A stretch of DNA of 64,000 bases from Parasphingopyxis marina (GTDB lineage Bacteria > Pseudomonadota > Alphaproteobacteria > Sphingomonadales > Sphingomonadaceae): positions 372,001-436,000 of the forward strand of contig NZ_JACJVJ010000002.1 of assembly GCF_014237875.1 (NCBI RefSeq), written 5' to 3'. The position numbers and the translations under genes are program-made. Below, piece by piece: positions 801 to 21,273 of this stretch (its first letter is position 1; the number at the start of each line of letters is the position of its first letter). The notes beneath the pieces were generated by a model. That model was not told the origin of the DNA. It ran no database searches and saw nothing but the letters and a program-made list of their open reading frames with translations.

Positions 801-885
801 GCGGTTAAGCGGCGTGGTGAACGCTTGCAAGGCAGCGCCAGAACGAACATAAGTTGCGCAATAAAGGGGTCGCAAGAAATTCGGG

Positions 886-902
886 GGGCGCTTTAGGCGC
901 CC
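886..902. terminator. Perfect 6-bp stem with 5-base loop upstream of the cytochrome operon
   Basis: GGGCGC, loop TTTAG, GCGCCC. It lies between the end of the acetolactate-synthase-like gene and the first cytochrome gene. No T-tract follows, so it may be a weak or Rho-assisted terminator or a structured leader. The intergenic stretch 801-934 otherwise shows no clear promoter consensus. Confidence 0.3.
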
Positions 903-934
903 ATTATGGTCGGCAACCGCGCCAGGGGAGATTT

Positions 935-2329: not shown

Positions 2330-4314
2330 TGCGTTCCGGCAAGATTACCGCGCTGCTAACGGCAAGCGCGCTCGTCCTCGCCTCCTGCGGCGGCGGTGGC
2401 AGCGGCGGCACACCCGGCAACACCCAGGGCAATCCCGCACCGCCCCCGCCGCCCCCGCCGCCGGGATCGACCCAGCTCTACGACGTCCCTGCCCAGCGAT
2501 CCCTCTCGGCCGCGGACGTTCAGCGCGTGATCGCGCAGGCCGCGGGCGAAGCGAGCGCGCGCGGGCTTCCCGTGGTGATCGCGGTCGTCGACCGGGTCGG
2601 CAATGTGCTCGCCGTGTACCGGATGAACGGCGCCAACGAGGCGCTAAACATCCCCGCCCCGCCCGGCACCAATTTCGATCTTCAGGGGCTTGCCTTGCCC
2701 GCCCCCGCCGCGCGCGCGGGCGCGATCGCCAAGGCGATCACCGGCGCCTATCTCTCTTCGGGCGGCAACGCCTTTTCCACGCGCACGGCGAGCGAGATCG
2801 TCCAGCAGCATTTCCCGCCCGCGCCGACCACGGTCGGGCTGGAATCCGGGCCGCTGTTCGGCGTGCAGTTCAGCTCCCTGCCCTGCTCCGACCTCGCCCG
2901 CCGCTTCACCGGCGGCATGGGCCCGAGCGCGCTGATCGGGCCCAAGCGCACGCCGCTCGGCCTGTCCGCCGATCCCGGCGGTTTTCCGCTCTACCGTAAC
3001 GGCGTCGTTGTCGGCGGCGTCGGGGTGATGGGCGACGGCGTTTACGGCTTCGACCCCAACCGGCTCGACAATGACAATGACGACGAGGAGGCGATCGCGC
3101 TCGCCGCGACAAACGGCTTCACGCCGCCCGCCTCGATCCGCGCCAACCGCATTCCGGTCGACGGGACGACGCTCAAATATAGCGATGCGTCGACCGGCGA
3201 TTTCCAGAGCAATCCGGATGCGCCGCCCGCCTTTGGCTCGATCGCGGGTATGCTGGTCGACGTGCCCGGCTATTTCATGGCAGCAGGCGGGATCGTCGCC
3301 GGCACCGCCTATGGATCCGAAGCCTCGGGCATCCGCGCCTCGACGGCAGCCGAATTCTCGATCCGCGACGCGTTCGTGCTGTCGAACGGATCGGGCACCA
3401 ACCGCTTCCCGATCCGCGCCGCGACCGACGGGGCGGACGTCACGCAGCCGCTGACGGCGGCGGAAGTGACGGCGGTGCTCGAAGAGGCCTTTACCGTCAT
3501 GCAGCGCGCGCGCGCGCAAATCCGCCGCCCGCTCGACAGCCGCGCCCAGGTGACGATTTCGATCGTCGATACCCATGGCGAGGTGCTGGGCATCGTGCGC
3601 TCGCCCGACGCGCCGATCTTCGGCACCGATGTGTCGCTGCAAAAGGCGCGCACCGCGACCTTCTTCTCGGGCGCCCAGGCCGGCAACCTGCTGCTCGCCA
3701 ATACCGATGCCGGCGTTCCGGCCTTCGTGCCCGCGCTGCGCACTTTCCTGAACGATCCCAATGCGCTGACCGGCACCTTCGCCTTTGCCGACCGGTCCGG
3801 CGGCAATCTTTCGCGCCCCTATTTCCCGGACGGCGAAGTCGGCCGCCCCAACGGGCCCCTGTCGCGCCCGATCGACAGCTTCAACCCCTTCTCGACCGGC
3901 CTGCAATCCAACCTGATCGTCGGCAACATAATCCAGCATGTCGGCTTCATCTTCGGCATGAACCCGGACACGCCGGCGCGCTGCACGGCGATGCCGGATG
4001 TCGCGCCGGGCCAGAACCCGCTGGAAAACGGCATCCAGATCTTCCCCGGCTCGGTACCCATCTATCGCGGCAATGTGCTGGTCGGCGGCATCGGCGTGTC
4101 GGGCGACGGTATCGACCAGGACGACATGATCAGCTTTCTCGGCGCGCATAATGCGTCGGTACGGACCGGCACCATCAACAATGCCCCGCCGGAAATGCGC
4201 GCCGACCGGATCGTCGTGAATGTCGGCGGCAACAATGTGCGGCTGCGCTATGTCAACTGCCCGTTCGCGCCGTTCCTCGACACCGACGAGAACAATGTCT
4301 GCCAGGGACTGTAA
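2326..4314 (+). CDS. Lipoprotein with two GlcG/HbpS-like domains
   Basis: A 662-residue protein starting inside the stop of the preceding cytochrome gene. A lipoprotein signal ends in the lipobox LASC (Cys21), followed by a Gly-rich and then a Pro-rich linker (about residues 22-46), so it is likely tethered to a membrane on the periplasmic side. Two copies of a GlcG/HbpS-like (DUF336) module follow: the first with VVIAVVD near 84-90 and a GGFP...VGGVGV segment near 219-236, the second with VTISIVD near 410 and PIYRGNVLVGGIGV near 580-595. Characterised HbpS members bind or degrade haem; others are of unknown function. Within a multihaem cytochrome operon a haem-related or redox-accessory role is plausible but inferred. 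The duplicated, lipidated form is unusual for a family normally made of single ~140-residue domains. Confidence 0.8.
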   Translation: MMRSGKITALLTASALVLASCGGGGSGGTPGNTQGNPAPPPPPPPPGSTQLYDVPAQRSLSAADVQRVIAQAAGEASARGLPVVIAVVDRVGNVLAVYRMNGANEALNIPAPPGTNFDLQGLALPAPAARAGAIAKAITGAYLSSGGNAFSTRTASEIVQQHFPPAPTTVGLESGPLFGVQFSSLPCSDLARRFTGGMGPSALIGPKRTPLGLSADPGGFPLYRNGVVVGGVGVMGDGVYGFDPNRLDNDNDDEEAIALAATNGFTPPASIRANRIPVDGTTLKYSDASTGDFQSNPDAPPAFGSIAGMLVDVPGYFMAAGGIVAGTAYGSEASGIRASTAAEFSIRDAFVLSNGSGTNRFPIRAATDGADVTQPLTAAEVTAVLEEAFTVMQRARAQIRRPLDSRAQVTISIVDTHGEVLGIVRSPDAPIFGTDVSLQKARTATFFSGAQAGNLLLANTDAGVPAFVPALRTFLNDPNALTGTFAFADRSGGNLSRPYFPDGEVGRPNGPLSRPIDSFNPFSTGLQSNLIVGNIIQHVGFIFGMNPDTPARCTAMPDVAPGQNPLENGIQIFPGSVPIYRGNVLVGGIGVSGDGIDQDDMISFLGAHNASVRTGTINNAPPEMRADRIVVNVGGNNVRLRYVNCPFAPFLDTDENNVCQGL

Positions 4315-4317
4315 GCG

Positions 4318-6594
4318 ATGGCGGCGGCGCTTCCCCTGATCTATCTGGCGGCGGCCGGCCCGCATGGCGGGCTTCCCGCGGATTTTCTCGAAGCGGCGGC
4401 CGATCCCGATGTCAGCCCGGAAGCCCGCGAACTGGTCGATGCGATCTTCGCGGCGACGGAAAACGGGCAGCGCGACCAGATACTGGAACTCAGCAGCATC
4501 GGCGTGGTGCAGCTGCCGCCCTCGACGTCCCAGGCCGCGCTGTCGGCCGCGCTCGCGGCGGACCCCGTACCCGCGATCCTTGCCGACAACGGCGAAGAGG
4601 AAGCGCTGGCGGTGCTCGAACTGACCGACGCGATGATCCAGCTGGAACTCGAGCTGACGCCGGCGATGGAAGAACAGCCGCTGGAACTGGCAAGCGCGGA
4701 CATTCTCGCTTCGCCGCTCTCGGCCAACCCGATTCCGCTGGCCGCCTCCTTCGCCGTCTATGCGGCGATGCAGAGCACGGGCACGATGCGCCGCCGCGTG
4801 CCGGGCGAGGACGAAACCGGGCTCAACGAGGTTCAGGTCGAGGACGAACGCGAACCCGGCGATGCCGATGACACGCTGATCGAGGGCCGCCGACGCCCGG
4901 GCGTGCCCCAGCAGGACCTGCCCGACCCCGTGACCCAGGAAAATATCGGCGCGGTCCGCGCGCCGCCGCCCCAGGCTTTTCGCGGCGACGAATTTCCGGT
5001 TCCCGATCGCTGGCGGCTCGCCGAGGCGATCGGCGTCCATGAGAACCTGCTCGATCCCTATAACCAGAACACGCTGAAGGGCGATCGGCCGATACCGCTG
5101 CACCGCCTGCCCGACTGGCTGCCGATCAACGGCGACGACTGGTTCCTGGTCCTCAACGCGGTGTCGGACACGGTCGTCGAGCCGCGCAGCTTCCCGACCC
5201 CGGTCGGCGTCCAGACCACCGCGGAACCCGACAGTATCGACGTATTCGGCCAGGGCGACAGCCTCGTGCTCGCGCAGACCTTCATCACCGGTTTCGCGCT
5301 GATCAAGGGCTCGACCGCCTATCGGCCGCCGGATGTCGAATATCGCGTCACGCTTGCCACCCAGTTCAACTATGTCGATGTCAACGAGCGCCGCATCCTG
5401 TTCGTGGAGCCGAGCCGCCCGACCCACCGGTTCGACTGGTTCACGGGCGTCCAGGAACTCTTCATCGACTATCACTTCCGCAACACCTCGCGGCGCTACG
5501 ATTTCGATTCGGTGCGCGTCGGCGTGCAGCCGTTCAACGCCGATTTCCGCGGCTTCCTATTCCAGGACAACCAGCTGGGCGTGCGCTTCTTCGGCACCCG
5601 CGACAATAACCGTTTCCAGTATAATATCGCCGCCTTCACGCGGCTGGAAAAGGATACGAATTCGGGGCTGAACGACCTGTTTTCGACGCCGCGTTCGGAT
5701 TATGTGTTCCACGCCAATCTTTTCCGGCAGGATCTGCCCTTTCCCGGGCTGACGAGCCAGATCAGCGTTACCTACAACATGAATCGGGAACGCAACGACG
5801 TCGAGATCGACGATAACGGCTTCCCCGTGCGCCCGGCGCTGCTCGGATCGTTGCAGGGCCGCGAATATGACGTCGTCTATCTCGGCTATAATGCGGACGG
5901 CCGGATCGGGCGGATCAACCTGTCGGGATCGGCCTATCTGGCGCTCGGCGAGGATCGCAACAGCTTCTTCACCGACCAGCCCGCCGACATCTTCGCCTAT
6001 TTCGGCGCGGCCGAGCTCAGCTACGATGTCGACTGGATGCGGTTCCGGCTTTCCGGGCTTTACGCATCGGGCGACGGCAATCCCTATGACAATACCGAGC
6101 GCGGCTTCGACGCGATCTTCGAAAATCCAATCTTCGCGGGCGCCGACACCAGCTACTGGATCCGTCAGGTCATCCCCTTCGCCGGCGGCGGCCGGGCGGT
6201 CGGCGTCAACGGCCGCAACGGCATCCTCAATTCGCTGCGCTCGTCCAAGGAACAGGGCCAGTCCAACTTCAACAATCCCGGCACCCTGCTGGTCGGCGTC
6301 GGCGCGGATTTCGATATCACTCCGCAGCTGCGGGTATCGGCCAATGCCAACCATTTGTGGTTCGAGGACACGGCAACCCTGCAGGCGCTGCGCAACGAGG
6401 GCAGCGTGCCGCGCTCGATCGGCTACGATCTTTCCGCTTCGGCCATCTACCGCCCGCTCGCCACGCAGAATCTCGTTTTCCGCCTGTCGGGCGCGGTGTT
6501 CGAGGCGAGCGACGGCTTTTCGGACCTTTTCGCCCAGGATCGGCGCTCCGGCACCTATTATTCCGTCCTTTTCAATGCGATATTGACCTACTGA
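4318..6594 (+). CDS. Outer-membrane beta-barrel protein of the cytochrome operon
   Basis: A 758-residue protein. About the first 230 residues are Ala/Glu/Asp/Pro-rich and contain no barrel-like strands. From about 260 to the end, alternating amphipathic strands separated by polar turns, with many Tyr/Phe/Arg residues, end in an aromatic residue (final Tyr), as expected for an outer-membrane barrel. No family was recognised with certainty; alginate-export-type or MtrB-like porins are the nearest idea. The N-terminus (LPLIYLAAAGPHGG) is only a weak signal peptide with no positive n-region. The gene is in the same frame as the preceding lipoprotein, separated only by TAA and one codon. It overlaps no neighbour and is followed after one base by the decahaem gene, suggesting a porin partner for it. 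Confidence 0.72.
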   Translation: MAAALPLIYLAAAGPHGGLPADFLEAAADPDVSPEARELVDAIFAATENGQRDQILELSSIGVVQLPPSTSQAALSAALAADPVPAILADNGEEEALAVLELTDAMIQLELELTPAMEEQPLELASADILASPLSANPIPLAASFAVYAAMQSTGTMRRRVPGEDETGLNEVQVEDEREPGDADDTLIEGRRRPGVPQQDLPDPVTQENIGAVRAPPPQAFRGDEFPVPDRWRLAEAIGVHENLLDPYNQNTLKGDRPIPLHRLPDWLPINGDDWFLVLNAVSDTVVEPRSFPTPVGVQTTAEPDSIDVFGQGDSLVLAQTFITGFALIKGSTAYRPPDVEYRVTLATQFNYVDVNERRILFVEPSRPTHRFDWFTGVQELFIDYHFRNTSRRYDFDSVRVGVQPFNADFRGFLFQDNQLGVRFFGTRDNNRFQYNIAAFTRLEKDTNSGLNDLFSTPRSDYVFHANLFRQDLPFPGLTSQISVTYNMNRERNDVEIDDNGFPVRPALLGSLQGREYDVVYLGYNADGRIGRINLSGSAYLALGEDRNSFFTDQPADIFAYFGAAELSYDVDWMRFRLSGLYASGDGNPYDNTERGFDAIFENPIFAGADTSYWIRQVIPFAGGGRAVGVNGRNGILNSLRSSKEQGQSNFNNPGTLLVGVGADFDITPQLRVSANANHLWFEDTATLQALRNEGSVPRSIGYDLSASAIYRPLATQNLVFRLSGAVFEASDGFSDLFAQDRRSGTYYSVLFNAILTY

Positions 6595-6595
6595 T

Positions 6596-9500
6596 ATGGG
6601 GGGCTGGCTCACACTTCCGCGCATGGCGCTGATGCTCTCTGGAGCCGTGGCGCTGTTCGCGATTCTCGCCGGCCCGATCGTCGCGGCCGGCGGCGAAGTC
6701 GCGATCCCGCGCGACTATGAGGCGGCCGGCGTCCTCGCCGAACCCTCGCCGCGCAACCAGACCCAGGAAGAGGCCGACGCCAAGAGCGCCGGCTGCATGA
6801 GCTGTCACACCAATACCGACGAGCTTTCGATGCATGCGACGCCGGCTGTGATCCTCGGCTGCACCGATTGCCATGGCGGCAATCCGGACGTCGCGCTCAC
6901 CGATCCGGCGCTCGATTTCGACGATCCCGCCTATCTCGCGGTGCAGAACCGCGCGCATGTGCTGCCGCTCTATCCCCAGGCCTGGCACTGGCCGGGCAGC
7001 GCCAATCCGGCGCGCAGCTACACGCTGCTCAACCGGGAAAGCCCGGAATATATCCGCTTCGTCAATCCGTCCGACTATCGCGTCGTGCGCGAAGCCTGCG
7101 GCGCCTGTCATATCGAGGTGATCGAGGCGGCCGAACGCTCGCTGATGGCGACCGGCGCGATGCTCTGGGGCGGGGCCGCCTATAATAACGGCATCCTCCC
7201 CTTCAAAGTCTATATCAACGGCGAGGCTTATACCCGCGACAGCGAACCCGCCGCGCTCGCTTCGCCGCGCACCGCGCCGGGCGAAGACGGCGAAGTCATC
7301 GACCCGCTCGACCAGAGCCGGATCACCGAAGCCCATGCTAATCGCGGCGCCCTGCCCGGCCTCGTCCCGCTGCCGACCTGGCATGTCGTGCCGCCGGGCG
7401 ACATCTTCCGCGTGTTCGAACGCGGCGGCCGCAACATCAACTCGCAATTCCCCGAGATCGGCATTCCCAATATCGGCGGCAACATCCAGCGGCTCGAAGA
7501 GAATGGCCGGCCGGACCTGCGCCAGTCCAACCGGGGCAGCGGCACCGGCCTGCGCGTCTCGATCCCCGTCCTCAACATCCACAAGACGCGGCTCAACGAT
7601 CCCTTCACCTGGTTCATGGGCACGAGCGAACAGCCCGGCGACTATCGCCATTCGGGCTGCGCCTCCTGCCATGTCGTCTATGCCAATGACCGCGAGCCGC
7701 GCCATTCGCTGACCTATTCCCAGTTCGGCCGCGACGGGCAGACGATCACCGTCGATCCGACGATCAACCGGCTGCGCCAGGGCCAGCACCGCACGAATAT
7801 CGAGGGCAATCCGACCGACGAGGATAGCCAGGAGCATGAGGTCGATGTGTCGATGCGGCCCGGCCAGTGCGGCGCGGCCTTCGACCTGCTGGCCCGCCGG
7901 CTGGAGGAACAGGGCATTCGCGGCTCGGGCGGCGGCCATGGCGAGGCCGGCGATCATCACGAAAGCGGCGACGCGCCCCATGATGAGGAGCATGAAACCG
8001 AAGCCCATGACGGCGTCGGCGGCCCCGAAGAAGACGCGGCGCATGGCGAATCGGGCGAAGTGCCGATGGAGCTGCGCGAGCGCGGCCATCCGCTGCGCCA
8101 CGCCTTCACCCGCGCGATCCCGACATCGCAGTGCATGAGCTGTCACATGCACCAGCCCAACGTCTTCCTGAACAGCTTCCTCGGCTACACGATGTGGGAC
8201 TATGAGAGCGACGCGCCGCTGATGTGGCCGCGCGAACAGGTCTACCGCACCGCCGAGCAGATGTTCGCGATCCTCGATCGCAACCCGGAAATGGCGTCGG
8301 TGCGCGGTTGCTGGGGCGATATCGACTTTGTCCGCAACGTGACCGACCTCATAAATCCGCAGGCGCGCAACACGCAGTTCGCCGACTATCACAGCCATGG
8401 CTGGAACTTCCGCGCCATTTTCCGGCGGGACCGGGAAGGCAATATGCTGGACGAGGACGGCAATATCCTCGATCCCGACGATCCCGAGCTGTTCCGGCGC
8501 GAAGGCGAAGGCCAGTTCGTGGAGGTCGGCACGAATCCGGGCCGCGCCGTCCATATGATGGATATCCATGCCGAACGCGGCATGCAGTGCGCGGATTGCC
8601 ATTTCGGACAGGATAGCCATGGCAACGGCCTGATCTATGGCGAAGTCGCGAGCGCGATCGAGATCGGCTGCCGCGATTGCCACGGCACCGCCGACGAATA
8701 TCCGACGCTGCGGACGTCCGGCCCGGCCGCGCCGCCGACCGGCAATAACCTGATGCTGATGCGCAACCCGGACGGCCAGCGCCGCTTCGAATGGATGCGC
8801 GACAATGCGGGGCGCCGGATCCTCGTCCAGCGCTCGATCATCGATCCCGATCTCGAATGGGAAGTGAGCCTTGTCCGCGACAGCGTCGACCGCACCCATC
8901 CCGATTTCAACGAGTCCTCGGCGCGCGCCAAGCTGATGGGCCGCAGCGGCGCGGAAACCGGCGTGTTCGAATTCGGGCCCGGCGTTGCGCCCGAAGACCG
9001 CGCCCATCCCGACGACGAGATGGCGTGCTTCACCTGCCATCTGAGCTGGACGACATCGTGCGGCGGTTGCCACCTGCCGATCGAGGCCAATGCGCTCACG
9101 TCCAGCAACCATTATGACGGCATCCAGAGCCGCAACTTCGCGACCTATAATCCGCAGGTCGCGCGCGACCAGATGTTCCAGCTCGGGCGGCATGGCGACA
9201 CGCGCGGCAACATCATCGCCCCGGTCCGCTCCAGCTCGGCGCTGGTCCTGTCCTCGACCAACATCAACCGCGAACGCATCTATGTGCAGCAGCCGCCGAT
9301 CTCCGCATCGGGCTATTCGAGCCAGGCCTTTGCGCCGCATTTCCCGCACACCGTGCGCCTGACCGAGACCAAGACCTGCACCGATTGCCATCTGAGCCAG
9401 GAGAACAACAACAACGCGATCATGGCGCAGCTGCTGCTGCAGGGCACCAACTTCGTGAACTTCGTGGGCCTCAACGCCTGGGTCGGCGAAGATCAGGGCT

Positions 9501-10939
9501 TCCAGGCCGTCCGCGTCACCGAATGGGATGAGCCGCAAACCGTGTTCGGTTCGTACCTTCATCGGTACGCTTACCCCGATTATTACCGCATCCATGTCGA
9601 GGATCATGATCGCGAACTGCGCGAATTCGTGCGCGGTGAAATCTTCGACGACGACATTTCCGGCGAAACCCGCGCGGTCGAGGAAATCCAGCACATCACC
9701 CAGCGCACCAACGGAGCGGCGCGATGCCTGCAGCTGCGCGGCGAATATATGTTCGTCGCCGAAGGCCGTGGCGGCTTCCAGGTCTATGACGTCGCCAGCG
9801 TTGCCAATAAAGGTTTCTCCGAGCGCATCATCACCGCCCCCTTCTCCCCGCTCGGCCATGATACGCGCGTCGACAGTACCAACGCGACCTGCATGGCGCT
9901 GCCCACCAACCAGAATATCGCGCCGACAAGGCAGGAAACGATGGCGGCGACGATGGTGACCGGGCCGGATGGCGAACAGCACAGCCTGCTCGACATCAAC
10001 CGCGAACAGCGCTTCCACCCGATCTACAATTACGCGGTCGTTACCGACAGCGTCGAAGGCCTGTTCCTCGTCAACGTCAACACGATGGCCGACGGCGAAT
10101 TTCGCAACAACTTCCTGCGCCGCGCCGAGCTTTCGAACGGCGAGCGGGCCTGGAACGAGAATGGCGTGCTGAACGGGGCGCGGCATATCGTGCTGGGCGG
10201 CCATTATGCCTATATCGCCGCCGATGCCGGCCTCGTCGTGGTCGATCTCGACGATCCGCTGAGCCCGCGCCATGTCGCGACCATCCCGATGACGGACGCG
10301 CGCGCCTCGGCGCTGCAGTTCCGCTATCTCTGGGTGACGACGGCGGCCGGCGTCGAGCTGGTCGACGTTACCGATCTCGAAAACCCGCGCCACATCCCTG
10401 GCGCCACCTTCCCGCTGGCCGATGCCCGCCGGCTCTATGTCGCCCGCACCTATGCCTATGTCGCAGCCGGGCGCGACGGGCTGGTGATCCTCAACGTCAC
10501 CAATCCCGAAGCGCCGGTCGAGCATACCCGCTATGCGCGCGAGGGCGAAACGCCCGACACGCAGGACGTGATCGTCGGTTCGACCAACGCCTCGCTCTTC
10601 GCCTATATCGCCGACGGCGTGAACGGGATGAAGGTGCTGCAGCTGACGAGCCCGGACAGCCAGCCCAATTTCTACGGCTTCTCGCCGGCGCCGGTGCCCG
10701 AACTCATCGCCTGGATGCGCACCTCCTCGCGCGCACTGGCGCTCTCCAAGGGCCTCGACCGAGACCGCGCCGTCGATGAAACCGGCGGGCAGATGGCCGT
10801 GTTCGGCCGGCACGGCTCCCGTCCCTTCACCCGCCAGGAAATGGAACGGCTGTTCCTCAACAGCCGCGGGACGCCCTATCTGGTGAGCGACGACGTCAAC
10901 ATGGACGAATGGGTGGAGACCGCCTTCACCCGACGCTGA
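6596..10939 (+). CDS. Decahaem cytochrome c with C-terminal LVIVD-repeat domain
   Basis: A 1447-residue protein starting one base after the barrel gene stop. A hydrophobic segment at residues 8-31 is the likely export signal or anchor. Ten CXXCH sites occur at 67, 89, 168, 355, 513, 665, 692, 811, 822 and 928 (first Cys). Residues 448-484 form a His/Asp/Glu-rich insert that could bind metal or be a flexible linker. From about 1040 to 1390 there are repeats of the LVIVD type (for example [36 protein letters not shown]), expected to fold as a beta propeller and sit at a surface. The combination suggests a cell-surface or periplasmic electron-transfer protein that works with the barrel. Electron donor and acceptor are unknown. 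This is by far the largest gene in the window. Confidence 0.88.
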
Positions 10940-13444: not shown

Positions 13445-14022
13445 TCGACGAGCCGAGCCTCAAACCCCGCATGACGGGCGATGAACGGCAGCGCTATGCG
13501 CAGCTGGCGTCTCGCGCATCCAATGTGCTGGAATTCGGGGCGGGCGGAAGCACGCTCCTGGCCTTCGAGAACGGCGTCCAGACCGTGACCAGCGTGGAAT
13601 CCGACAAGCTGTGGCTGGATCGCCTGCGGACCCATTCCGCGATGTCGCCCTATGTGCAGAGCGGCGCTTGGCAGCCGGTTCATGCGGACATCGGCGAGGT
13701 CGGCGCATGGGGCAGGCCCGCCGACAAAAGCCATATCGAAGACTGGCCCAACTATCATCGGGAAGTCTGGGACCGGTTTCCCCGCGCCTATGATCTTATC
13801 CTCGTCGACGGGCGGTTTCGCATCGCCTGTGCGATGCAGGCCGCGATCCGCGCGCCGGGATCGACCCTCGTATTTCACGATTTCTACCTGCGCCCGCACT
13901 ACGAACCGGTACTCGAGGTTTACGAGGTCGCCGAACGGATCGACTATATGGCGATCCTGTCGCTCAACAAGGCGATCAATGCGCCGGCCATCCTCAAGGA
14001 ATATGCGTCGGACCCGCGCTAG
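13441..14022 (+). CDS. Putative class I SAM-dependent methyltransferase-like protein
   Basis: A 193-residue protein with LEFGAGGST at about 32-40, which fits the glycine-rich SAM-binding loop (motif I), followed by a strand ending in VESD (acidic residue that would bind the SAM ribose), and later DLILVDGRFR resembling motif IV. No signal peptide or membrane segment. The target is unknown. Its stop overlaps the convergent phosphodiesterase gene stop by four bases. A small ORF ends on its start codon. Confidence 0.65.
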   Translation: MIDEPSLKPRMTGDERQRYAQLASRASNVLEFGAGGSTLLAFENGVQTVTSVESDKLWLDRLRTHSAMSPYVQSGAWQPVHADIGEVGAWGRPADKSHIEDWPNYHREVWDRFPRAYDLILVDGRFRIACAMQAAIRAPGSTLVFHDFYLRPHYEPVLEVYEVAERIDYMAILSLNKAINAPAILKEYASDPR

Positions 14023-14888
14023 CTTGCAGTCTTGTCCTTGGCGTGCTCGTCGAGAAGATAGCGGACGAGCGGCTGCATCGTTTCGTCATAGCGGGCGAGC
14101 TGCACATGCTCCTCCGCGTCGTCCATATGCGTGATCAGCGCGTCGCCGTTCCAGTAATGGAGCGAATAGCCGGGCGGATCCGCGACGATCATCGGCCGCT
14201 TGTCGGGTTTTCCGGGATCGATCTCCCGGAGATCCAACGCCACCAGCGGCGCCGTCGACGGCGTCACCGCAAGCGGCAATCCCGACCAGCCCGTCATGAT
14301 CGGCCGGTGGATATGCCCGGCGACCATGCCGATGACATTGTCGGCGCCCGACAGCGCCTCGCGCAGCCGCTTCACCCATGCCGCTTCCGGTTCGGTCGTC
14401 ATCCAGGGAATGCCGGTTTCGATCGGCGGGTGGTGGAGAACGATCAACACCGGCTTTTCGGTTTCCTCCGCGAGCCTTTCGGACAGCCACTCTGCGCGCG
14501 CTTCGCAGAATGCGCCGCCGTGACGGCCGGGTTCCAGCGTATCGAGCACGATCAGCCGGATCGGCCAATTCTCCTCGTCGACGACATATTGGATGAAGCC
14601 GCCCGAATGCGGCACTTCGGGGAAGAGCTTCCGGAAATTTTCGCGATCGTCATGATTGCCCATGCACGGCCAGACCGGAAACGGGCATTGGCCGAAGGCG
14701 GATTTGAGCCGGCGATAGCTGTCGGCATCGCCCTTGTCGGTGAGGTCTCCGGTGGCGAGCAGCAGATCGGGGCGCGGCTCCATATCGCCCAGGCGGTGCA
14801 ATACCTGATCGAGCCGGCGACGGTTGAATTCCGCGGGGTCGTCCGGATCGAAGCCCAGATGAATATCGGTGATCTGCGCAATCAGCAT
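14019..14888 (-). CDS. Metallophosphoesterase, CpdA-like (probable 3',5'-cyclic-nucleotide phosphodiesterase)
   Basis: A 289-residue cytoplasmic protein of the calcineurin-like fold. All metal-binding motifs are present: DIH at 8-10, GDLTD at 47-51, GNHD at 77-80, HHPP at 152-155 and GHIH at 191-194. This set and the length match the class III cyclic-nucleotide phosphodiesterase branch typified by CpdA, which hydrolyses cAMP. The substrate remains inference, since related proteins act on other phosphoesters. It lies 65 bases downstream of, and on the same strand as, the operon encoding a protein with two cyclic-nucleotide-binding domains, so a shared signal is plausible. Confidence 0.8.
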   Translation of the reverse strand: MLIAQITDIHLGFDPDDPAEFNRRRLDQVLHRLGDMEPRPDLLLATGDLTDKGDADSYRRLKSAFGQCPFPVWPCMGNHDDRENFRKLFPEVPHSGGFIQYVVDEENWPIRLIVLDTLEPGRHGGAFCEARAEWLSERLAEETEKPVLIVLHHPPIETGIPWMTTEPEAAWVKRLREALSGADNVIGMVAGHIHRPIMTGWSGLPLAVTPSTAPLVALDLREIDPGKPDKRPMIVADPPGYSLHYWNGDALITHMDDAEEHVQLARYDETMQPLVRYLLDEHAKDKTAS

Positions 14889-14953: not shown

Positions 14954-16795
14954 TCAGCGGTCTTCCCTTGGGTTGATTGCCAACCCGCCATAATCGCGTA
15001 CGCGCTCCGGCCTCTGGCCCCGGTTGTTCCGAGCGCGGACGAGATAAGGTGCCGCATCGTCGGCATGATAGCTGTGACACATAGCACAGGTCGAAACGAT
15101 TCTTTCGCCGCTCGGCGATCCGCCGGCATGGCATTCGCGGCAGGTTTCGATGCGCGGCAGCAGCACGTCGCTCGCCTCTTCGGAAGTATCGGCGGCATGG
15201 CAGGTGCTGCATTCCTCGGTTTCGTGCGCCTTATGATCGAACCAGCCATAATGCATGTAGCGCGCGATCTGCCGCACCGGCGTGATATCGAAGTTCAGGC
15301 TCCCGCGGATCGGCGGCTGCACGACCTGATGGCAATCATAGCAGGCGCCGTCACGCGAAAAGACCGCGCGGATGGCCTGGTCGGCGCGCGCATAGCGGGT
15401 GCGCGCGGCGAACTGGTAGCGGCCCACGGTCCGCGCCTGGCTGTCGTCGCCGGGCCGACGCCGGTGCATGCCGGACAGGTCGATCGGGCGCGGCGGCGCG
15501 GTGCCGCGATAGAAGGCGCGGATATCGGCCACCACCATTTCGGGCTCGCCATGGCGCAGCGTGCGGATCGTGCCGCCGATGCGATCGAAGGCAAGGCTGT
15601 GGCACATCTGGCAATTGGCCTCCATCGTGATCGGCTCGAAGCGCACGCCGTCGGGCGTCTCGACATGGCAATCGGCGCAATCGAGCGCGTTGCCGAAGCC
15701 ATATTGCGCGCTCAGCCGCTGGGCCATGCGGGCCACGCCGTTGCTCTGCGAAAGGTGCAGCTCGTGCGGGAATTTGAGGCCGTTATCTTCGCGCAGATCC
15801 TCGGTATCGAGGCTGGTGCGCCGATATTGCGGCCGCGATCCATCGACGCCGCCGGGCGTCAGCATGATCCGCGGGCGGAATTCGGGATGGCCATCGACAA
15901 AGTCGTGAACATCCTCGAACCGGGTGTCGGTGAGCCGCGCATCCAGGCCGGTATGGCAATCCGCGCAAAAGCGCTGCGGCGCCGCCGGCATCGGGCCGGA
16001 CCCTTCATGTTCGATATGGCAGGAGGCGCAGCTATTGTCCGGCCGGTTGAAGGCATGGGCGACCGAGCGCAGGAAGGATCGGCCAAGGCCCAGTTCGGGT
16101 TCGGCGATCGCCATCCGGTCGGCCGGCGCATGATCGGGCACGCCGGCATGGCATTCGAGACAGGCGCTGTCGCGCACCGAAACGAACGCCTCGACATGGC
16201 AGGACTGGCAATCATTGGCGAGGTTGGAATGCGCTTGCGACATCGGCCCGCTGATCCACATCGTATCGGCATGAAAGCCGGGCCCGCGTTCTTCGACGCC
16301 CTGGCTCGAAAAATAGGCGAAGATCGGCCAGGCGAGGCAGGCGACCAGGATCAACACCGCGAACACCCAGGAACTGATCCGCTTGCCGGGTACGATGCCG
16401 GCGAGATTGAACAGCTTGTGCGCGGCGACCTTGTCCGCCGCCTCTTCGCGATCGACGGTGATCGCGATCCGGCCTTCGTCTTCGCCGTCTCCCATCGCGA
16501 CGCTCAGGCGATGCGGGCCGATGCGGATATTGCCGCCGCGCTGGGCGCTGATGTCTCCGCGTGTCGTGGAGCGGCCGTTGATGTTGACCGGCAGATTTTC
16601 CTCCGTGACGACGCGAACCTGGTTGCGGCCCTCGCGCGTCAGCGTGGCATGGTGCAGCGTAACCCCGAGATCGGAGAGCAGGATATCGCATTCGGATGCG
16701 CGGCCGACCGACAGCGAATCCTTGTCGACCGTCTTGGAGCGGATGATCTCGCGGCCACCGGAGGTGCGCGAACGATATTTTACGACAAAGCTCAT
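14954..16795 (-). CDS. FHA domain - transmembrane - decahaem cytochrome c fusion
   Basis: A 613-residue protein; the start at 16795 is seven bases after the upstream gene stop. Residues ~20-100 form a forkhead-associated domain: VGR at 30-32, CDILLSD at 36-42, VTLHHA at 45-50, and a late NG at 73-74, matching the usual GR / DxxLSD / (V/I)SxxHA / NG pattern. One transmembrane helix spans about 143-163. The remainder carries ten CXXCH sites with first Cys at 196, 212, 256, 277, 373, 395, 485, 529, 552 and 570. Haem is attached in the periplasm, so the FHA part must be cytoplasmic. FHA domains bind phosphothreonine peptides; here one is joined directly to a periplasmic electron wire. It is the last gene of a three-gene redox operon. 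Confidence 0.9.
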   Translation of the reverse strand: MSFVVKYRSRTSGGREIIRSKTVDKDSLSVGRASECDILLSDLGVTLHHATLTREGRNQVRVVTEENLPVNINGRSTTRGDISAQRGGNIRIGPHRLSVAMGDGEDEGRIAITVDREEAADKVAAHKLFNLAGIVPGKRISSWVFAVLILVACLAWPIFAYFSSQGVEERGPGFHADTMWISGPMSQAHSNLANDCQSCHVEAFVSVRDSACLECHAGVPDHAPADRMAIAEPELGLGRSFLRSVAHAFNRPDNSCASCHIEHEGSGPMPAAPQRFCADCHTGLDARLTDTRFEDVHDFVDGHPEFRPRIMLTPGGVDGSRPQYRRTSLDTEDLREDNGLKFPHELHLSQSNGVARMAQRLSAQYGFGNALDCADCHVETPDGVRFEPITMEANCQMCHSLAFDRIGGTIRTLRHGEPEMVVADIRAFYRGTAPPRPIDLSGMHRRRPGDDSQARTVGRYQFAARTRYARADQAIRAVFSRDGACYDCHQVVQPPIRGSLNFDITPVRQIARYMHYGWFDHKAHETEECSTCHAADTSEEASDVLLPRIETCRECHAGGSPSGERIVSTCAMCHSYHADDAAPYLVRARNNRGQRPERVRDYGGLAINPREDR

Positions 16796-16802
16796 CGCGC
16801 CC

Positions 16803-17699
16803 CTACCAGTAGAAAAACACGCTGATGATGTGCGCCGAAAGCGCTGCGAGAAGCGCAAAGGTGACGGGCACATGGATATACAGCCAGACCTGCAACAGCC
16901 CCTTTATCCGCAGATGGCGGCGAACCCGGGCGAGCGCCGCCTGCTTGCGGGAAAGCAGCGCCTCCAGCCGGTCGTAGAGAGTGTCGAGCGGCGAATCCCC
17001 GGCGCTGGACCGGGCACGGAATTCGGCCAGCGCCTCGGCGGTTCCGCCGATCTGCTGACGCGAGGACAGGCGCCGCCAGATCCCGCCGGAAAAGGCGTTC
17101 TCGTCGATCGCCCGCTGCACGACCGCCGCGCTACCGGCTTCGAGCGGCTGGGCGGCATCGAATAGCTGGCGATTGATATCGGCCAGCGTCTCAAGCATTT
17201 GCGCCTCGGTCGTCTCGTCCCGGTTCGTACTGAGCTTGCCCGGCAGGGTCGTATAGGCCGTGATCCCGAACAGGCCCGAGAGGATGACGATCATCATCAG
17301 CACCCAGGCCAGGGTGTGGACGTTCCAGCCCAGCTGGAAGCCCGTATGCAAGGTGCCGATCACGATCAGCGAAAGGCCCAGATAGACATGCGCCGAAGTC
17401 CAGGCCTTGAGCGACCAGCGACCCGGCGTCATCGCGCGTTTCCTGACGCCGAGAAAGGCGAGCCAGACGATCAGCAGCACGCCTGCGGTGCCCAGCGTAT
17501 AGCCGAACCAGCTGCCGCCATTGGGCCGCGGTTTGATATCGATCAGCAGATAGGCGACGATCAGCGTGGCCGAGATCGCGCCGGCCATCTTCGCCCAATA
17601 GAGGCGGCGATAGCGCAGGAAGCCCTCATGCTGCACGCCGCCCTTCAGGGTCGTGCGGTCGATTTCGCCGCCGGTCGGTTCCGCGCCCCGTGTCGCCAT
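16803..17699 (-). CDS. Dihaem cytochrome b-like integral membrane protein
   Basis: A 298-residue protein with about five transmembrane helices (around 37-54, 67-84, 103-120, 127-148 and 270-296). Within helices, His104 and His118, and His276 and His290, have the same 13-residue spacing, which would allow two bis-His b haems; His128 is a further candidate. A cytoplasmic or periplasmic helical loop (about 155-265) separates helices four and five. No exact family is recognised, although it is reminiscent of cytochrome b561-like or ferric-reductase-like membrane subunits. The start at 17699 lies two bases after the preceding stop; a longer frame upstream is the shadow of that gene. It probably passes electrons between the flavin/FeS protein and the FHA-decahaem cytochrome or the quinone pool. 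Confidence 0.75.
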   Translation of the reverse strand: MATRGAEPTGGEIDRTTLKGGVQHEGFLRYRRLYWAKMAGAISATLIVAYLLIDIKPRPNGGSWFGYTLGTAGVLLIVWLAFLGVRKRAMTPGRWSLKAWTSAHVYLGLSLIVIGTLHTGFQLGWNVHTLAWVLMMIVILSGLFGITAYTTLPGKLSTNRDETTEAQMLETLADINRQLFDAAQPLEAGSAAVVQRAIDENAFSGGIWRRLSSRQQIGGTAEALAEFRARSSAGDSPLDTLYDRLEALLSRKQAALARVRRHLRIKGLLQVWLYIHVPVTFALLAALSAHIISVFFYW

Positions 17700-17701
17700 G
17701 G

Positions 17702-20146
17702 CTAGAGCTGCTCCGTTTCGAGCCGGGAAACCGACAGGAATTCTTCCGGCGCCACGCGGATGGCCGCGCCGGTCGGGCAGGCACGCACACAGGCCGGGCC
17801 GCCCTCGATCCCCGCGCACATATCGCATTTGATCGCCTTTTTCGGCGTGTCGTCCGCGACATTGGCATCGATCCAGTCATGGTCGGGCTCGCCAGGGCCC
17901 GGGCCGATGCCGAAGAACAGCCAGCTCAGCAGCGAGGGCTTTTTCGGGGGCGTCTTTTCCATGCGGATCACGCCATAGGGGCAGTTGCGCTGGCAATTGC
18001 CGCAGCCGATGCAGGTCTCGTCGATGAACACCTCGCCATCGTCGCCGCGATGAATCGCGTTGGGCGGGCAATCGGCCATGCAATGCGGATGTTCGCAATG
18101 GCGGCAGGATGTCGGCACATGGAGATGCGCATAGGTACGCCCGGCTTCGCGGTTGAGACGCGAGAGCCCGTCATGGCTGTCGGCGCAGGCCTTTTCGCAA
18201 TTGTCGCAGCCGACGCACAGATGTTCGTCGATCAACAGCACGTCGGTCGCTTCGCCGATGCCGTTTTCGACCAGGAAGGAGGCGACCGAACTGTACATGT
18301 CGACGACGCCGGAGAAGCTGTCCTTCTTCGCCTCGACGAAATTGTTCACGTCTTCGCGCGCGGACATGTCGCGCCGGGCGCGGTCGAGCAGCTGCGGTTT
18401 GCGCTCGAGCAGCGTACCGAACGCCGCGCCATCGACCTTGATGACTTCGGACTTGATCGCCGCGCGCACGGTCGCGGTCCGGCGGCCGCCGTCGAGCAGC
18501 GACATTTCGCCGACATAGCTGCCCGCCGGCAGATAGGAGAGGAAGACCGGTTTCCGGCCGACCATCTTCTCGACGACCATCGAGCCGGACCGGATGACGA
18601 AGATATCGGTCCCCTCCTCGCCTTCGTTGATGATCGCCTCGCCCGCCTTCACATTCACGATTTCGGCGGTCTTCATGACCTCGACGAGATCTTCGGAGGT
18701 CAGGCCCGATCCGAACATCTGCAAAAGCTGGCGCTCGGTGGAGATGTTGGTGATCGCGCGCTTGGCCGCCGGTACCGTCGCCATCAGCTTGAGCGCCGCC
18801 ATGCGGGGGATTTCGACGACGATCGTGTCTTCCGCGGCGGTGATCGTCGAACCGCGGCGGCGGCCGGAAACCAGCCCGACTTCGCCGAAGATGGACCCCT
18901 GGTCGATCGGCGCCGTCAGCGAGGGATCGGCCTCGCTCAACTGAACCGACACCTTGCCCTCGGCAATGCCGAACAGCGAGGAGCCGGGCTCGTTCTTTTC
19001 GAAAATGGTCGCCCCGCGCCGGAAGAACTGCACTTCGGAATCGAGCATGAATTCGCGCATCTGCAGCGGCGAAAGCTCGTTGAGGATGGTGACGCGCGCG
19101 CGCAGAAATTCCAGCCAGTCGGCCACCGAGCGGCCGCCGGGAAGGCCCCGGAACTTTTCCTCGAGCAGCGGCTCGTCCGCCGGTTTGAGATCGGTATTGC
19201 CGTTGATGAACTCGACGACGTCATAGCCCTGGTTCATGCAATGTTTGATCAGCGGATAACCGGCGAGCGCGCCGATGACGAAGATTCCCTTCTTCGTCGA
19301 TTCGAAGGCCGGCGACAGCTTGGGAAAGGCCTCCCGCTCCTCGCTGGCAAATTCGACGCCGCAGGCTTCTACGAATTTGCGCGGCGGCGCGGAGCCCATC
19401 CGCGCGATGATCCGGTCGCACCGGATCTTGGTCTGCCCGTCGCGGGTGTCGAGCATGATCTGCTTGTCGAGCACCTCGGAGGGCGTCGTCTCGGTCATGA
19501 TGTTGATGCGGCCCTGCTCGCCCGCCTGCTGGAGCAGCTTGACGTTGGCATCCTTGGCGCGCGCGAACTCGGCCGAACGGTTGAGGATGGTGACGACATT
19601 GCCCTGCTCGGCATCGGCGGCGAGGCCGAGCGCATTCTCGATTCCCGCATCGCCCGATCCGATGACGATGATATGTTCGTCGACATATTCGGTGGGATCG
19701 TCGAGCTGGTACTGGATATGCGGCTTGTCGCCGCCGGGAACCCGCATCGTGTTCGGGTTGCCCTGCGTGCCGATGGCGAGGATCACATTTTCGGCCTGGA
19801 TCGTCTCGCCGCCCGCCAGCTTGATCTGGAAATTGCCGGCATCGCCGGTGATTTCGGTCACGTCCGCGTTGAGCTTGACGTTGACGCCGAGGCTGGCCGC
19901 CTGCTCGTCCCAGGTGCCGAGCACCACTTCGCGCTTGCCGGCGTCGAAATCCATGTCCGAACGCAGGATCAGCTGGTTCGGCGTCGCCATGACGTGCTTG
20001 CCCTTCTGATACTTGTAGATCGTATCGGAAAGATGGTCGGTCTTTTCGAGAAGGACGTGGGACAGGCCCAGCTCCGCCGCACGTCCGGCCGCGCTGAGCC
20101 CGGCAGGCCCAGAGCCGATGATCGCTATGCGATAGGCGTCTGCCAC
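17702..20146 (-). CDS. FAD oxidoreductase fused to two cyclic-nucleotide-binding domains and four [4Fe-4S] sites
   Basis: An 814-residue cytoplasmic protein with modules in order: an FAD/NAD(P) pyridine-nucleotide oxidoreductase of the thioredoxin-reductase type (GSGPAG at 11-16 for FAD, IGSGDAG at 162-168 for NAD(P), FVIGAL near 289-294); two CRP-like cyclic-nucleotide-binding domains at about 357-455 and 480-580 (phosphate-binding cassettes GEVGL...RRRGS and GEMSL...RRTAT); and a polyferredoxin at 640-800 with Cys groups at 644-654, 681-693, 712-722 and 774-790. The polyferredoxin resembles electron-transfer subunits such as HybA or DmsB. The classical CXXC of thioredoxin reductase is absent, so it is not a disulfide reductase. 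It is the first gene of the operon with the cytochrome b-like and FHA-decahaem proteins. The role as an NAD(P)H-linked, cNMP-gated electron input is inference. Confidence 0.88.
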   Translation of the reverse strand: MADAYRIAIIGSGPAGLSAAGRAAELGLSHVLLEKTDHLSDTIYKYQKGKHVMATPNQLILRSDMDFDAGKREVVLGTWDEQAASLGVNVKLNADVTEITGDAGNFQIKLAGGETIQAENVILAIGTQGNPNTMRVPGGDKPHIQYQLDDPTEYVDEHIIVIGSGDAGIENALGLAADAEQGNVVTILNRSAEFARAKDANVKLLQQAGEQGRINIMTETTPSEVLDKQIMLDTRDGQTKIRCDRIIARMGSAPPRKFVEACGVEFASEEREAFPKLSPAFESTKKGIFVIGALAGYPLIKHCMNQGYDVVEFINGNTDLKPADEPLLEEKFRGLPGGRSVADWLEFLRARVTILNELSPLQMREFMLDSEVQFFRRGATIFEKNEPGSSLFGIAEGKVSVQLSEADPSLTAPIDQGSIFGEVGLVSGRRRGSTITAAEDTIVVEIPRMAALKLMATVPAAKRAITNISTERQLLQMFGSGLTSEDLVEVMKTAEIVNVKAGEAIINEGEEGTDIFVIRSGSMVVEKMVGRKPVFLSYLPAGSYVGEMSLLDGGRRTATVRAAIKSEVIKVDGAAFGTLLERKPQLLDRARRDMSAREDVNNFVEAKKDSFSGVVDMYSSVASFLVENGIGEATDVLLIDEHLCVGCDNCEKACADSHDGLSRLNREAGRTYAHLHVPTSCRHCEHPHCMADCPPNAIHRGDDGEVFIDETCIGCGNCQRNCPYGVIRMEKTPPKKPSLLSWLFFGIGPGPGEPDHDWIDANVADDTPKKAIKCDMCAGIEGGPACVRACPTGAAIRVAPEEFLSVSRLETEQL

Positions 20147-20292: not shown

Positions 20293-21273
20293 ATGACCCA
20301 AGCAAGTGAATCGAAAAGCGAAAATCGCGGCCGGGGAAGCGTGGGAACCGCCCGCTACGCCCTGATCGCCGCCGCCGCGATCGCCACCTTTTCCATCGGC
20401 TATGCGATAGCCCGGGGCGACGAACGGGGCGCGGCGGCCAGCGGAGCGCCGAGCGGCGCGATCGACCCCTCGCTAACCGACGAGGATATTGCCGGCGCGA
20501 TTCCCGATCTCGAAGCACGGGTCGAGGCCAATCCGGAGGATGAGGAAGGCTGGGCGATGCTCGGCCTCGCCTATTACCAGGTCGGCCGCTACCCCGACGC
20601 CGCCGAGGCCTATGGCCGGGCGAGCGCGCTCGATTCTACCAATGCCCGCTATTTCTCGGCGCGCGGCGAAGCGCTTGCGCTGGCCGCCGACGGCGCCTTT
20701 CCCGCCGAAGCGGCGCAGGCCTTTGCCCGCGCGCTGGAGCTCGATCCCGCCGATCCCCGCGCCCGCTATTTCGAAGGCGTCCGCAAGGACATGGCCGGCG
20801 ATCATCGGGGGGCGGTCGACGACTGGATCGCGCTGCTGCGCGATACGCCGCCCGGTTCTCCCTGGGAGGGCGATCTCCGCCAGCTGATCGCGCAGGTGGC
20901 GCAGGCCGAGAATATCGACATCGAAGGCCGCGTCCCGCCGCCCGGCACCGCCGCCCAGACCAACCTCCCGGCCGCCGTCACGCAGGGCATTCCCGGGCCG
21001 ACGCCGCAACAGATGCGCGAAGCCAGCCAGCTGCCCCAGGGCCAGCAGGACATGATGGTCGAGGATATGGTCGACGGGCTCGATCAGCGGCTGCAGGGCA
21101 ATCCCAACGATGCCGATGGCTGGATCATGCTGATGCGCTCGCGCATGCAGCTCGGCCAGTCGGCGCGGGCGAGCCAGGCCTGGCGGCGCGCGCGCGAAGC
21201 CTTTGCGAACAATTCCGCGCAGCTCGAGCGAATCAACAATTCCGCCCGCGCACTGGGCGTGCCGGGGGCCTAG
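20293..21273 (+). CDS. ccmI: CcmI/CycH-like TPR protein of cytochrome c maturation
   Basis: A 326-residue protein with one N-terminal membrane helix (about 22-40), then a periplasmic region with TPR units around 65-170 (EDEEGWAMLGLAYYQVGRYPDAAE is the typical first repeat) and another TPR-like segment at the C-terminus (NPNDADGWIMLMRSRMQLGQ). This arrangement fits the CcmI/CycH component that presents apocytochrome c to the haem ligation machinery. No other ccm genes are in the window. Its position divergent from the multihaem operon, in a segment encoding 25 predicted haem sites, supports the call. The stop overlaps the TetR gene stop by four bases in convergent orientation. Confidence 0.75.
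   Translation: MTQASESKSENRGRGSVGTARYALIAAAAIATFSIGYAIARGDERGAAASGAPSGAIDPSLTDEDIAGAIPDLEARVEANPEDEEGWAMLGLAYYQVGRYPDAAEAYGRASALDSTNARYFSARGEALALAADGAFPAEAAQAFARALELDPADPRARYFEGVRKDMAGDHRGAVDDWIALLRDTPPGSPWEGDLRQLIAQVAQAENIDIEGRVPPPGTAAQTNLPAAVTQGIPGPTPQQMREASQLPQGQQDMMVEDMVDGLDQRLQGNPNDADGWIMLMRSRMQLGQSARASQAWRRAREAFANNSAQLERINNSARALGVPGA

Follow-up and report, generated by a model that had tools for sequence, protein, structure and literature searches.

A predicted PCC4-like electron conduit whose inner half is probably NAD(P)H-linked and under cyclic-nucleotide control

In a 64,000-nucleotide stretch of DNA from Parasphingopyxis marina (hereafter, the window), three genes, here called A, B, and C, form a tight minus-strand operon, and we suggest that their products probably, though by no means certainly, make up the inner half of a PCC4-like trans-envelope conduit that would be linked to NAD(P)H and controlled by a cyclic nucleotide. 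The basis of this reading is sequence motifs, gene order, a gene fusion, a module swap, and co-occurrence, from which we infer cofactor occupancy, complex formation, the ligand, gating, and the location of the K2 and K4 proteins described below. An earlier note on this DNA had placed a three-gene redox operon at 14954-20146, and all three genes are found there on the minus strand, separated by 2 nt (A-B) and 7 nt (B-C). The start of B is most likely the ATG at 17699 rather than the end of the longer open reading frame at 17828, and that of C is most likely the ATG at 16795 rather than 16873. Beyond this operon, C is followed by a phosphodiesterase-like gene (14019-14888), and the plus strand of the window holds another operon linked to the first (854-10939), with gaps of -4 (K5-K3), 3 (K3-K2), and 1 nt (K2-K4); its first gene, K5, is listed with a TTG start and may truly start downstream. 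The features are as follows.

Gene A, 17702-20146, minus strand: 814 aa, GTG start at 20146
Flavin domain of A, about residues 5-310: TrxR/YpdA-like, FAD plus NAD(P)
cNMP pockets of A, Glu422/Arg431 and Glu547/Arg556: two cyclic-nucleotide-binding domains, between the flavin and FeS modules
FeS module of A, residues 644-790, C-terminal: 16 Cys, four [4Fe-4S] sites
Gene B, 16803-17699, minus strand: 298 aa
Gene C, 14954-16795, minus strand: 613 aa
FHA/YscD-like domain of C, about residues 22-104: N-terminal
TM segment of C, residues 144-162: one segment
K7 (gene D), 14019-14888, minus strand: 289 aa, calcineurin-type phosphoesterase, 65 nt after C
K5, 854-2329, plus strand: up to 491 aa, c554-like cytochrome, four CXXCH and one CX4CH
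K3, 2326-4314, plus strand: 662 aa, lipoprotein-like N-terminus (LASC, by eye), HbpS-like stretches
K2, 4318-6594, plus strand: 758 aa, conserved C-terminal strand ending in an invariant Tyr
K4, 6596-10939, plus strand: 1447 aa, hydrophobic signal-like segment at the N-terminus, ten CXXCH, LVIVD repeats at the C-terminus
K6, 20293-21273, plus strand: 326 aa, adjacent to A and divergent from it; a CcmH/CycH-type TPR protein (cytochrome c biogenesis)

In Pfam, A matched Pyr_redox_3 and Pyr_redox_2 (114 and 102 bits), cNMP_binding in two stretches (115 bits, above cut-off), and Fer4_7/Fer4_11, and it scored 46.8 bits against PF13247 (cut-off 26.2). In 37 full-length A proteins, the window's included, the 16 FeS cysteines and the GxGxxG motif for FAD are invariant (37/37), and the NAD motif reads GxGxx(G/A), with G in 23 proteins and A in 14. 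The Glu and Arg of the phosphate-binding cassette are the motif of cyclic-nucleotide-binding domains; this pair (G-E ... R) is invariant at both pockets in all 37 proteins. The motifs thus bear out the four [4Fe-4S] sites and the two cNMP domains that had been proposed for A. A hydrophobic TM-like segment was not found in A. A thioredoxin reductase fused to CRP-like domains was considered as an identity for this protein and rejected for the missing CxxC redox disulfide (CxxC is absent from the first 600 residues in 37/37 full A). The match to the YpdA bacillithiol reductase model TIGR04018 reaches 133.7 bits, below the curated cut-off of 339.9.

B contains the motifs W100xxxH104x13H118 and W272xxxH276x13H290 together with SGLFG at 141. 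Across 27 B proteins, two WX3HX13H motifs are present in every member, H104, H118, H128, H276, and H290 are invariant, and SGXXG is found in 24/27 homologues. B is a membrane protein, probably with five helices, lying at about 26-53, 64-90, 97-119, 124-159, and the end of 237-297 in a low-confidence structure model that was built from six sequences and is weak (mean pLDDT 59.4); TM3 was missed by the hydropathy cut-off and is helical in this model. The histidines of each pair are 14 residues apart on helices 3 and 5, an arrangement that fits two stacked b haems, and two b haems are expected in B from its motifs, in agreement with the dihaem-b-like label of the earlier note. The score against Ni_hydr_CYTB was sub-threshold (25.4 bits, cut-off 30.1), a PDB fold search with the B model found nothing (best E 0.21), and PDB profile searches for B and K2 returned coiled-coil or chance matches only. 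In two genomes (loci L069 and L070), A and B are one open reading frame, which fits docking of the FeS end of A on the cytoplasmic start of B.

The window's C has ten CXXCH motifs, in line with its initial description as a decahaem protein, and all ten are kept in the C proteins of 35/35 loci (the window's own included); the C proteins of two further loci, L069 and L070, have nine. Its N-terminal part scored 21.8 bits against Pfam FHA (cut-off 20.7), with GarA as the best solved match (5.5e-9) and GarA/OdhI as the nearest solved relatives, and among 27 C proteins of the lineage with full-length A, Pfam found FHA in 21 and YscD_cpl in 24. Because a single TM segment follows the FHA-like domain, this domain would be cytoplasmic and the haems periplasmic. 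FHA domains that bind phosphothreonine have a Gly-Arg pair and a phosphate-contact Ser and Asn. Among the 27 proteins, G31-R32 is present in 27, a Ser at position 46 in 1, His49 in 17, and Asn73 in 16; with the phosphate-contact Ser in 1/27, C does not match the phosphothreonine-binding motif. Furthermore, Pfam found no FHA domain in the one sister C that was scanned, from L071. Gating by protein phosphorylation through the FHA domain, as proposed in the earlier note, is therefore not supported and was rejected as a core feature, and the FHA domain of C is probably an assembly or docking domain. The window's genome has one PF00069 kinase match; phospho-signalling may occur in this genome, but is unsupported for C.

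PCC4 is a predicted porin-cytochrome conduit defined from gene clusters by He et al. 2017 (PMC5566968). In the passages that describe it, it comprises a porin, 4-, 5-, and 10-haem cytochromes, and an IMP with five helices, two WX3HX13H motifs, and SGXXG; in Subgroup II a PF13247 Fe-S gene lies upstream of the IMP gene, and in one species FeS and IMP are annotated as a single gene. As far as these passages go, the window resembles PCC4 at several of these points: B fits the IMP signature (W100/W272, SGLFG at 141), which is common to PCC3 and PCC4, the PF13247 gene A lies 2 nt upstream of B, the ten CXXCH of C and the four CXXCH plus one CX4CH of K5 correspond to the 10- and 4-haem cytochromes, and the single FeS-IMP gene resembles the A-B fusions of L069/L070. 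The view that no described complex has this combination thus does not hold, because PCC4 as there predicted already contains the FeS/IMP/decahaem core, and the ABC system is a variant within a predicted, uncharacterised conduit family. The window differs from PCC4 in that the pentahaem k18 is absent from its genome (E 1e-20) and K4 is in its place, in having K2/K3/K4 apparently in place of the porin k10 and k18, and in its flavin-cNMP-FeS fusion, the FHA-like domain on the decahaem protein, and the PDE-like gene. The words 'cyclic', 'FHA', and 'forkhead' are absent from the main text of PMC5566968, and those of its passages that name NADH, NAD, or flavin assign no such partner to PCC4. PCC3 has an extracellular cytochrome with very many haems, a description that K4, with ten CXXCH in 1447 aa, does not fit.

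The k18 gene also occurs in 22 genomes without full-length A, and 8 of these 22 were examined. All eight have a sister operon with k13 (FNR-type), k10, k18, an IMP with two WX3HX13H motifs, a flavin-less A (A'), and a tetrahaem gene; A' has the FeS part and the cNMP pocket motif in 8/8, and the decahaem gene is complete in 7/8, the L141 copy reaching the end of its stretch. Judged by gene content, these operons are PCC4 operons in the sense of He et al. The k10 protein, encoded next to k18, has a barrel-like C-terminal end and a weak score in the strand test described below. k13 lies beside a flavin-less A' in L071-L073 too, and in L071 Pfam detected cNMP_binding in A' (88 bits) and NAD_binding_1 plus Fer2 in k13. 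Overall, the cNMP pocket motif is present in 12/12 A' (4/4 and 8/8), and a k13-type FNR gene was found in no fetched stretch that carries full-length A. Two unrelated flavin modules, TrxR-like in A and FNR-type in k13, thus fill one slot, an indication that the redox partner on the inner side is NAD(P)H; and because the cNMP domains are kept with the FeS part in both lineages, they are probably functional there. Together with the invariant ligands and the A-B fusion, the separate FNR-type gene beside A' supports the continuous path from NAD(P)H through FAD, FeS, and haem b to haem c that the earlier note had drawn. The NAD(P)H-flavin module fused into A is new relative to PCC4; also new are the intact cNMP pocket motif in A and A', the PDE-like gene after C, and the linked outer module.

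C homologues share 67-77% identity in Parasphingopyxis and 39% in a Parvularcula metagenome genome, and they are present on 12 Sphingobium megaplasmids. Co-occurrence was scored throughout in the same 385 alphaproteobacterial genomes, the window's included: C was found in 39 (E 1e-3; the matches in G061, G064, and G224 are weak or partial), A in 36 (E 1e-60), all within the 39 C genomes, and K4 in 29 (E 1e-10), all within the 36 A genomes. k18 (E 1e-20) occurs in 7/36 A genomes, six times instead of K4 and once, in G160, alongside it; K4 or k18 is present in 35/36, and neither was found in G025, which is 86% complete. Twelve further ABC genomes have K4 in 8 cases and lack it in 4 (G385, G515, G410, G516); the K4 of G742, G698, and G573 is encoded at another place in the genome. 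Whether the three genes occur separately in relatives, a point raised at the outset, is answered mostly in favour of the earlier note: C and B are adjacent in 35/35 loci and A lies beside them in 33/35 (the window's included), but in L014 (G178) and L027 (G351), and likewise in G274, A adjoins K4 instead, and in G120 A is on a different contig from B-C (L123, L124). The order B-C-K3-K2-K4-A-K5 runs on one strand in L127 (G351) and L125 (its relative G274), and K5-A-B-C-K3-K2-K4 does so in L129; in G224, B-C lies at a contig end and A had no match. In a phylum sample, the B profile matched 30/398 genomes, and an open reading frame with at least six CXXCH is present in 29 of the 30 surrounding stretches; for G410, the remaining one, C comes some 750 bases later. 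The A-B-C order is conserved across Alphaproteobacteria and beyond.

Within the outer module, K2 had no Pfam match at E 0.1 and is a possible candidate for an outer-membrane beta-barrel. This assignment draws on a home-made strand-alternation score with reweighted aromatics, a weak test in which one soluble control reached 2.24: the z values were 3.4 for the window's K2, 0.96-2.8 for ten other K2, and 0.57-1.67 for four k10, compared with 2.76 for the TpsB positive control and -1.67 to 2.24 for nine other window proteins. A structure model of K2 from its single sequence was unusable (pLDDT 31.6). K2 was rejected as a detectable k10 relative, because profile comparison with hhalign gave a probability of 0.2 and no similarity. 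K4 was rejected both as a k18 relative, the similarity being limited to a short haem-motif stretch, and as ExtM, whose model it matched with 63 bits (cut-off 800) across 52 residues. K3 was flagged in 28/30 stretches with K2, the two misses being a contig end and the edge of the fetched window stretch.

The cyclic-nucleotide input suggested by the earlier note is backed by the pocket motif in 37/37 A and 12/12 A', by a PDE-like neighbour, and by four PF00211 cyclase matches in the window's genome, of which the closest precedes the window by some 15 kb. The neighbour, K7, has metallophosphoesterase motifs, and its best NCBIfam models are SpdA (138.6 bits, cut-off 400) and CpdA/PRK11148 (83 bits, cut-off 225), so that it falls below both cut-offs. 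K7 was flagged in 12 fetched stretches. Besides the window itself, these come from three Parasphingopyxis, from seven genomes that belong to the window's family, and from G617, which is of a different family and has K7 at a place not adjacent to C; in Sphingobium herbicidovorans, a metallophosphoesterase gene also lies 3' of C. CRP/FNR boxes, searched by consensus, were absent 5' of A and of K5, and a single loose pattern lies at 746.

Our working hypothesis is that NAD(P)H would reduce the FAD of A, from which electrons would pass through the four [4Fe-4S] sites of A to the two b haems of B, with H104/H276 on the cytoplasmic and H118/H290 on the periplasmic side. C, with its ten c haems, would receive them next and hand them to K5, after which they would cross the outer membrane by way of a K2 barrel that carries or faces K4, the decahaem/propeller cytochrome. 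Starting from NAD(P)H, outward flow would be downhill and is taken as the default. A cyclic nucleotide would open or close electron entry at the FeS module of A, which is suggested by the cNMP domains lying between the flavin and FeS modules and being kept with FeS when the flavin gene is separate, and the PDE-like K7 would reset this signal. Taken further, cNMP domains in the NAD(P)H-entry subunit might gate trans-envelope electron flow directly, with a PDE resetting them, as a general property of PCC4-type conduits, a tentative extension that we would put slightly below an even chance.

An account that overlaps with this hypothesis and differs from it in the last step is that NAD(P)H electrons serve one dedicated reaction, with K4 (or k18) as its catalyst on the cell surface or within the periplasm. 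In five distant alphaproteobacterial genomes, K4, at 61-66% identity to the window protein, is the most conserved member of the set, ahead of A (52-54%), K2 (47-52%), B (43-46%), and C (28-33%); this pattern would be expected for an enzyme rather than a wire at the K4 end and leaves room for a specific reaction there, and the regular presence of the HbpS-like K3 with K2 points the same way. Against this account, no catalytic family was recognised in K4 (Pfam, NCBIfam), and the inner module also occurs with a different outer cytochrome, k18; we regard a dedicated reductase as unlikely, though deserving serious consideration. Less likely still is electron uptake, in which an extracellular donor would feed B and then quinone, and A would be no more than a side branch for NAD(P)H formation or a redox/cNMP sensor. 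In the passages concerned, He et al. (PMC5566968) propose for PCC3 and PCC4 that electrons flow inward to the quinone pool. A close relative, L002, is a metagenome genome titled Biocath_Alpha_32, and the invariant H128 of B could serve a quinone site. Both lineages, however, have an NAD(P)H-flavin partner, in the form of two unrelated modules; this and the A-B fusion argue for NAD(P)H, and not quinone alone, as the inner terminus; and reduction of NAD+ by Fe(II)-level donors is uphill without proton-motive input. A signalling device, in which the multihaem end would read the redox state outside the cell, the cNMP/FHA end would relay or integrate this signal, and net electron flow would be minor, would account for the two kinds of signalling-type domain (cNMP and FHA), the latter a real FHA relative as its GarA match indicates, but is very improbable given the near-absence of the phosphate-contact Ser, the missing FHA in the L071 sister C, the lack of an output domain in A, B, and C (Pfam), cNMP domains that bind a ligand and do not make one, and a linked cytochrome-rich outer module that speaks for bulk electron flow.

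Apart from PCC4, several known systems share parts of the conduit that we favour. In a table line under 'Other', PMC10734462 lists a 'Forkhead-associated protein' with 10 haems (Gallionellaceae cluster 403, 27 genomes); by label alone this is likely the same kind of protein as C, and the passages found there give no operon, partner, or function for it. CbcL of Geobacter sulfurreducens (PMC9129911) is one quinone-linked polypeptide with six helices and nine c haems; as described there, it resembles B-C in leading from a dihaem-b membrane part to a periplasmic multihaem c part, in CbcL for extracellular reduction, and differs in joining dihaem b and nonahaem c in one chain where the window has separate genes and ten CXXCH. 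The passages on CbcL mention no flavin, FeS, or cNMP module. As outlined in parts of PMC5566968 and PMC10734462, MtrCAB/MtoAB share with the window a porin plus multihaem cytochromes across the outer membrane. K2, without a Pfam match at E 0.1, shows no MtrB-type relationship. The inner partner of MtrCAB/MtoAB is CymA, whereas that of the window's outer module would be ABC. Hmc, Tmc, and Qrc of sulfate reducers unite an FeS subunit, a membrane cytochrome, and a multihaem c in one inner-membrane complex, and are not known to have a flavin or a cNMP module; the window differs from them in that no model among the NCBIfam matches listed for A, B, or C reached its own cut-off (A: best 25 of 159). 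Passages of PMC11475568 and a term search of PMC13386937 yielded nothing on the present system, an absence that weighs weakly with open-licence PMC text as the source.

If the conduit reading is true, predicted PCC4 conduits gain NAD(P)H, reached through two flavin modules that can replace each other, as their inner terminus, and a cyclic nucleotide as their control input. The surprising part would be that a cyclic nucleotide directly controls a trans-envelope chain in sphingomonads and other Pseudomonadota; allosteric second-messenger gating of a respiratory-type chain, rather than control via transcription, would be unusual. One named culture, Sphingobium herbicidovorans MH, has the full set (ABC, K7, and K5-K3-K2-K4) on its chromid pMSHV, which makes knock-outs and electrochemistry feasible.

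Across the same distant genomes, K4 (window 6596-10939), the decahaem protein with LVIVD repeats, is more conserved than A, B, C and the possible barrel K2, and this 10-haem protein is possibly the actual enzyme of the system. Within the same outer module, the HbpS-like, lipoprotein-type K3 (window 2326-4314) sits among cytochrome genes and stays next to K2. Genes resembling K5-K3-K2-K4, with a TPR gene near them, are also borne on plasmid pMC4 of Sphingopyxis indica (L122, 8552-18251); the record of that plasmid shows no match to gene C.

Two genomes from a single genus, which belongs to a different class from the window's, have A and B fused in a single ORF of ~1120 codons (L069, about 3046-6420; L070, about 7344-10703), and nine CXXCH motifs were counted in C of both. 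Elsewhere, a 24- or 21-CXXCH protein adjoins the B-type inner-membrane protein (L074, 9194-11891; L084, 9297-11929), and these loci look like PCC3, a predicted porin-cytochrome conduit (He et al. 2017). A separate FeS-FAD protein is encoded close to the L074 locus. Immediately after C, several alphaproteobacteria carry a K9 cluster gene of about 150 aa (e.g. L096, 9309-9755); the copy in L096 was without any Pfam match.

Two further features lie upstream of the window:

L106, 467-2338 and 2369-10588: FhaC-like barrel and 2739 aa exoprotein, a two-partner-secretion-like pair (read by eye)
L109, G000:C2:356930-357442: frame of 688 codons with a PF00211 cyclase-like domain, ~15 kb ahead of the window

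Near the S. herbicidovorans cluster, too, there is a ShlB/FhaC gene (L121). The cyclase-like protein of L109 is a possible source of the signal.
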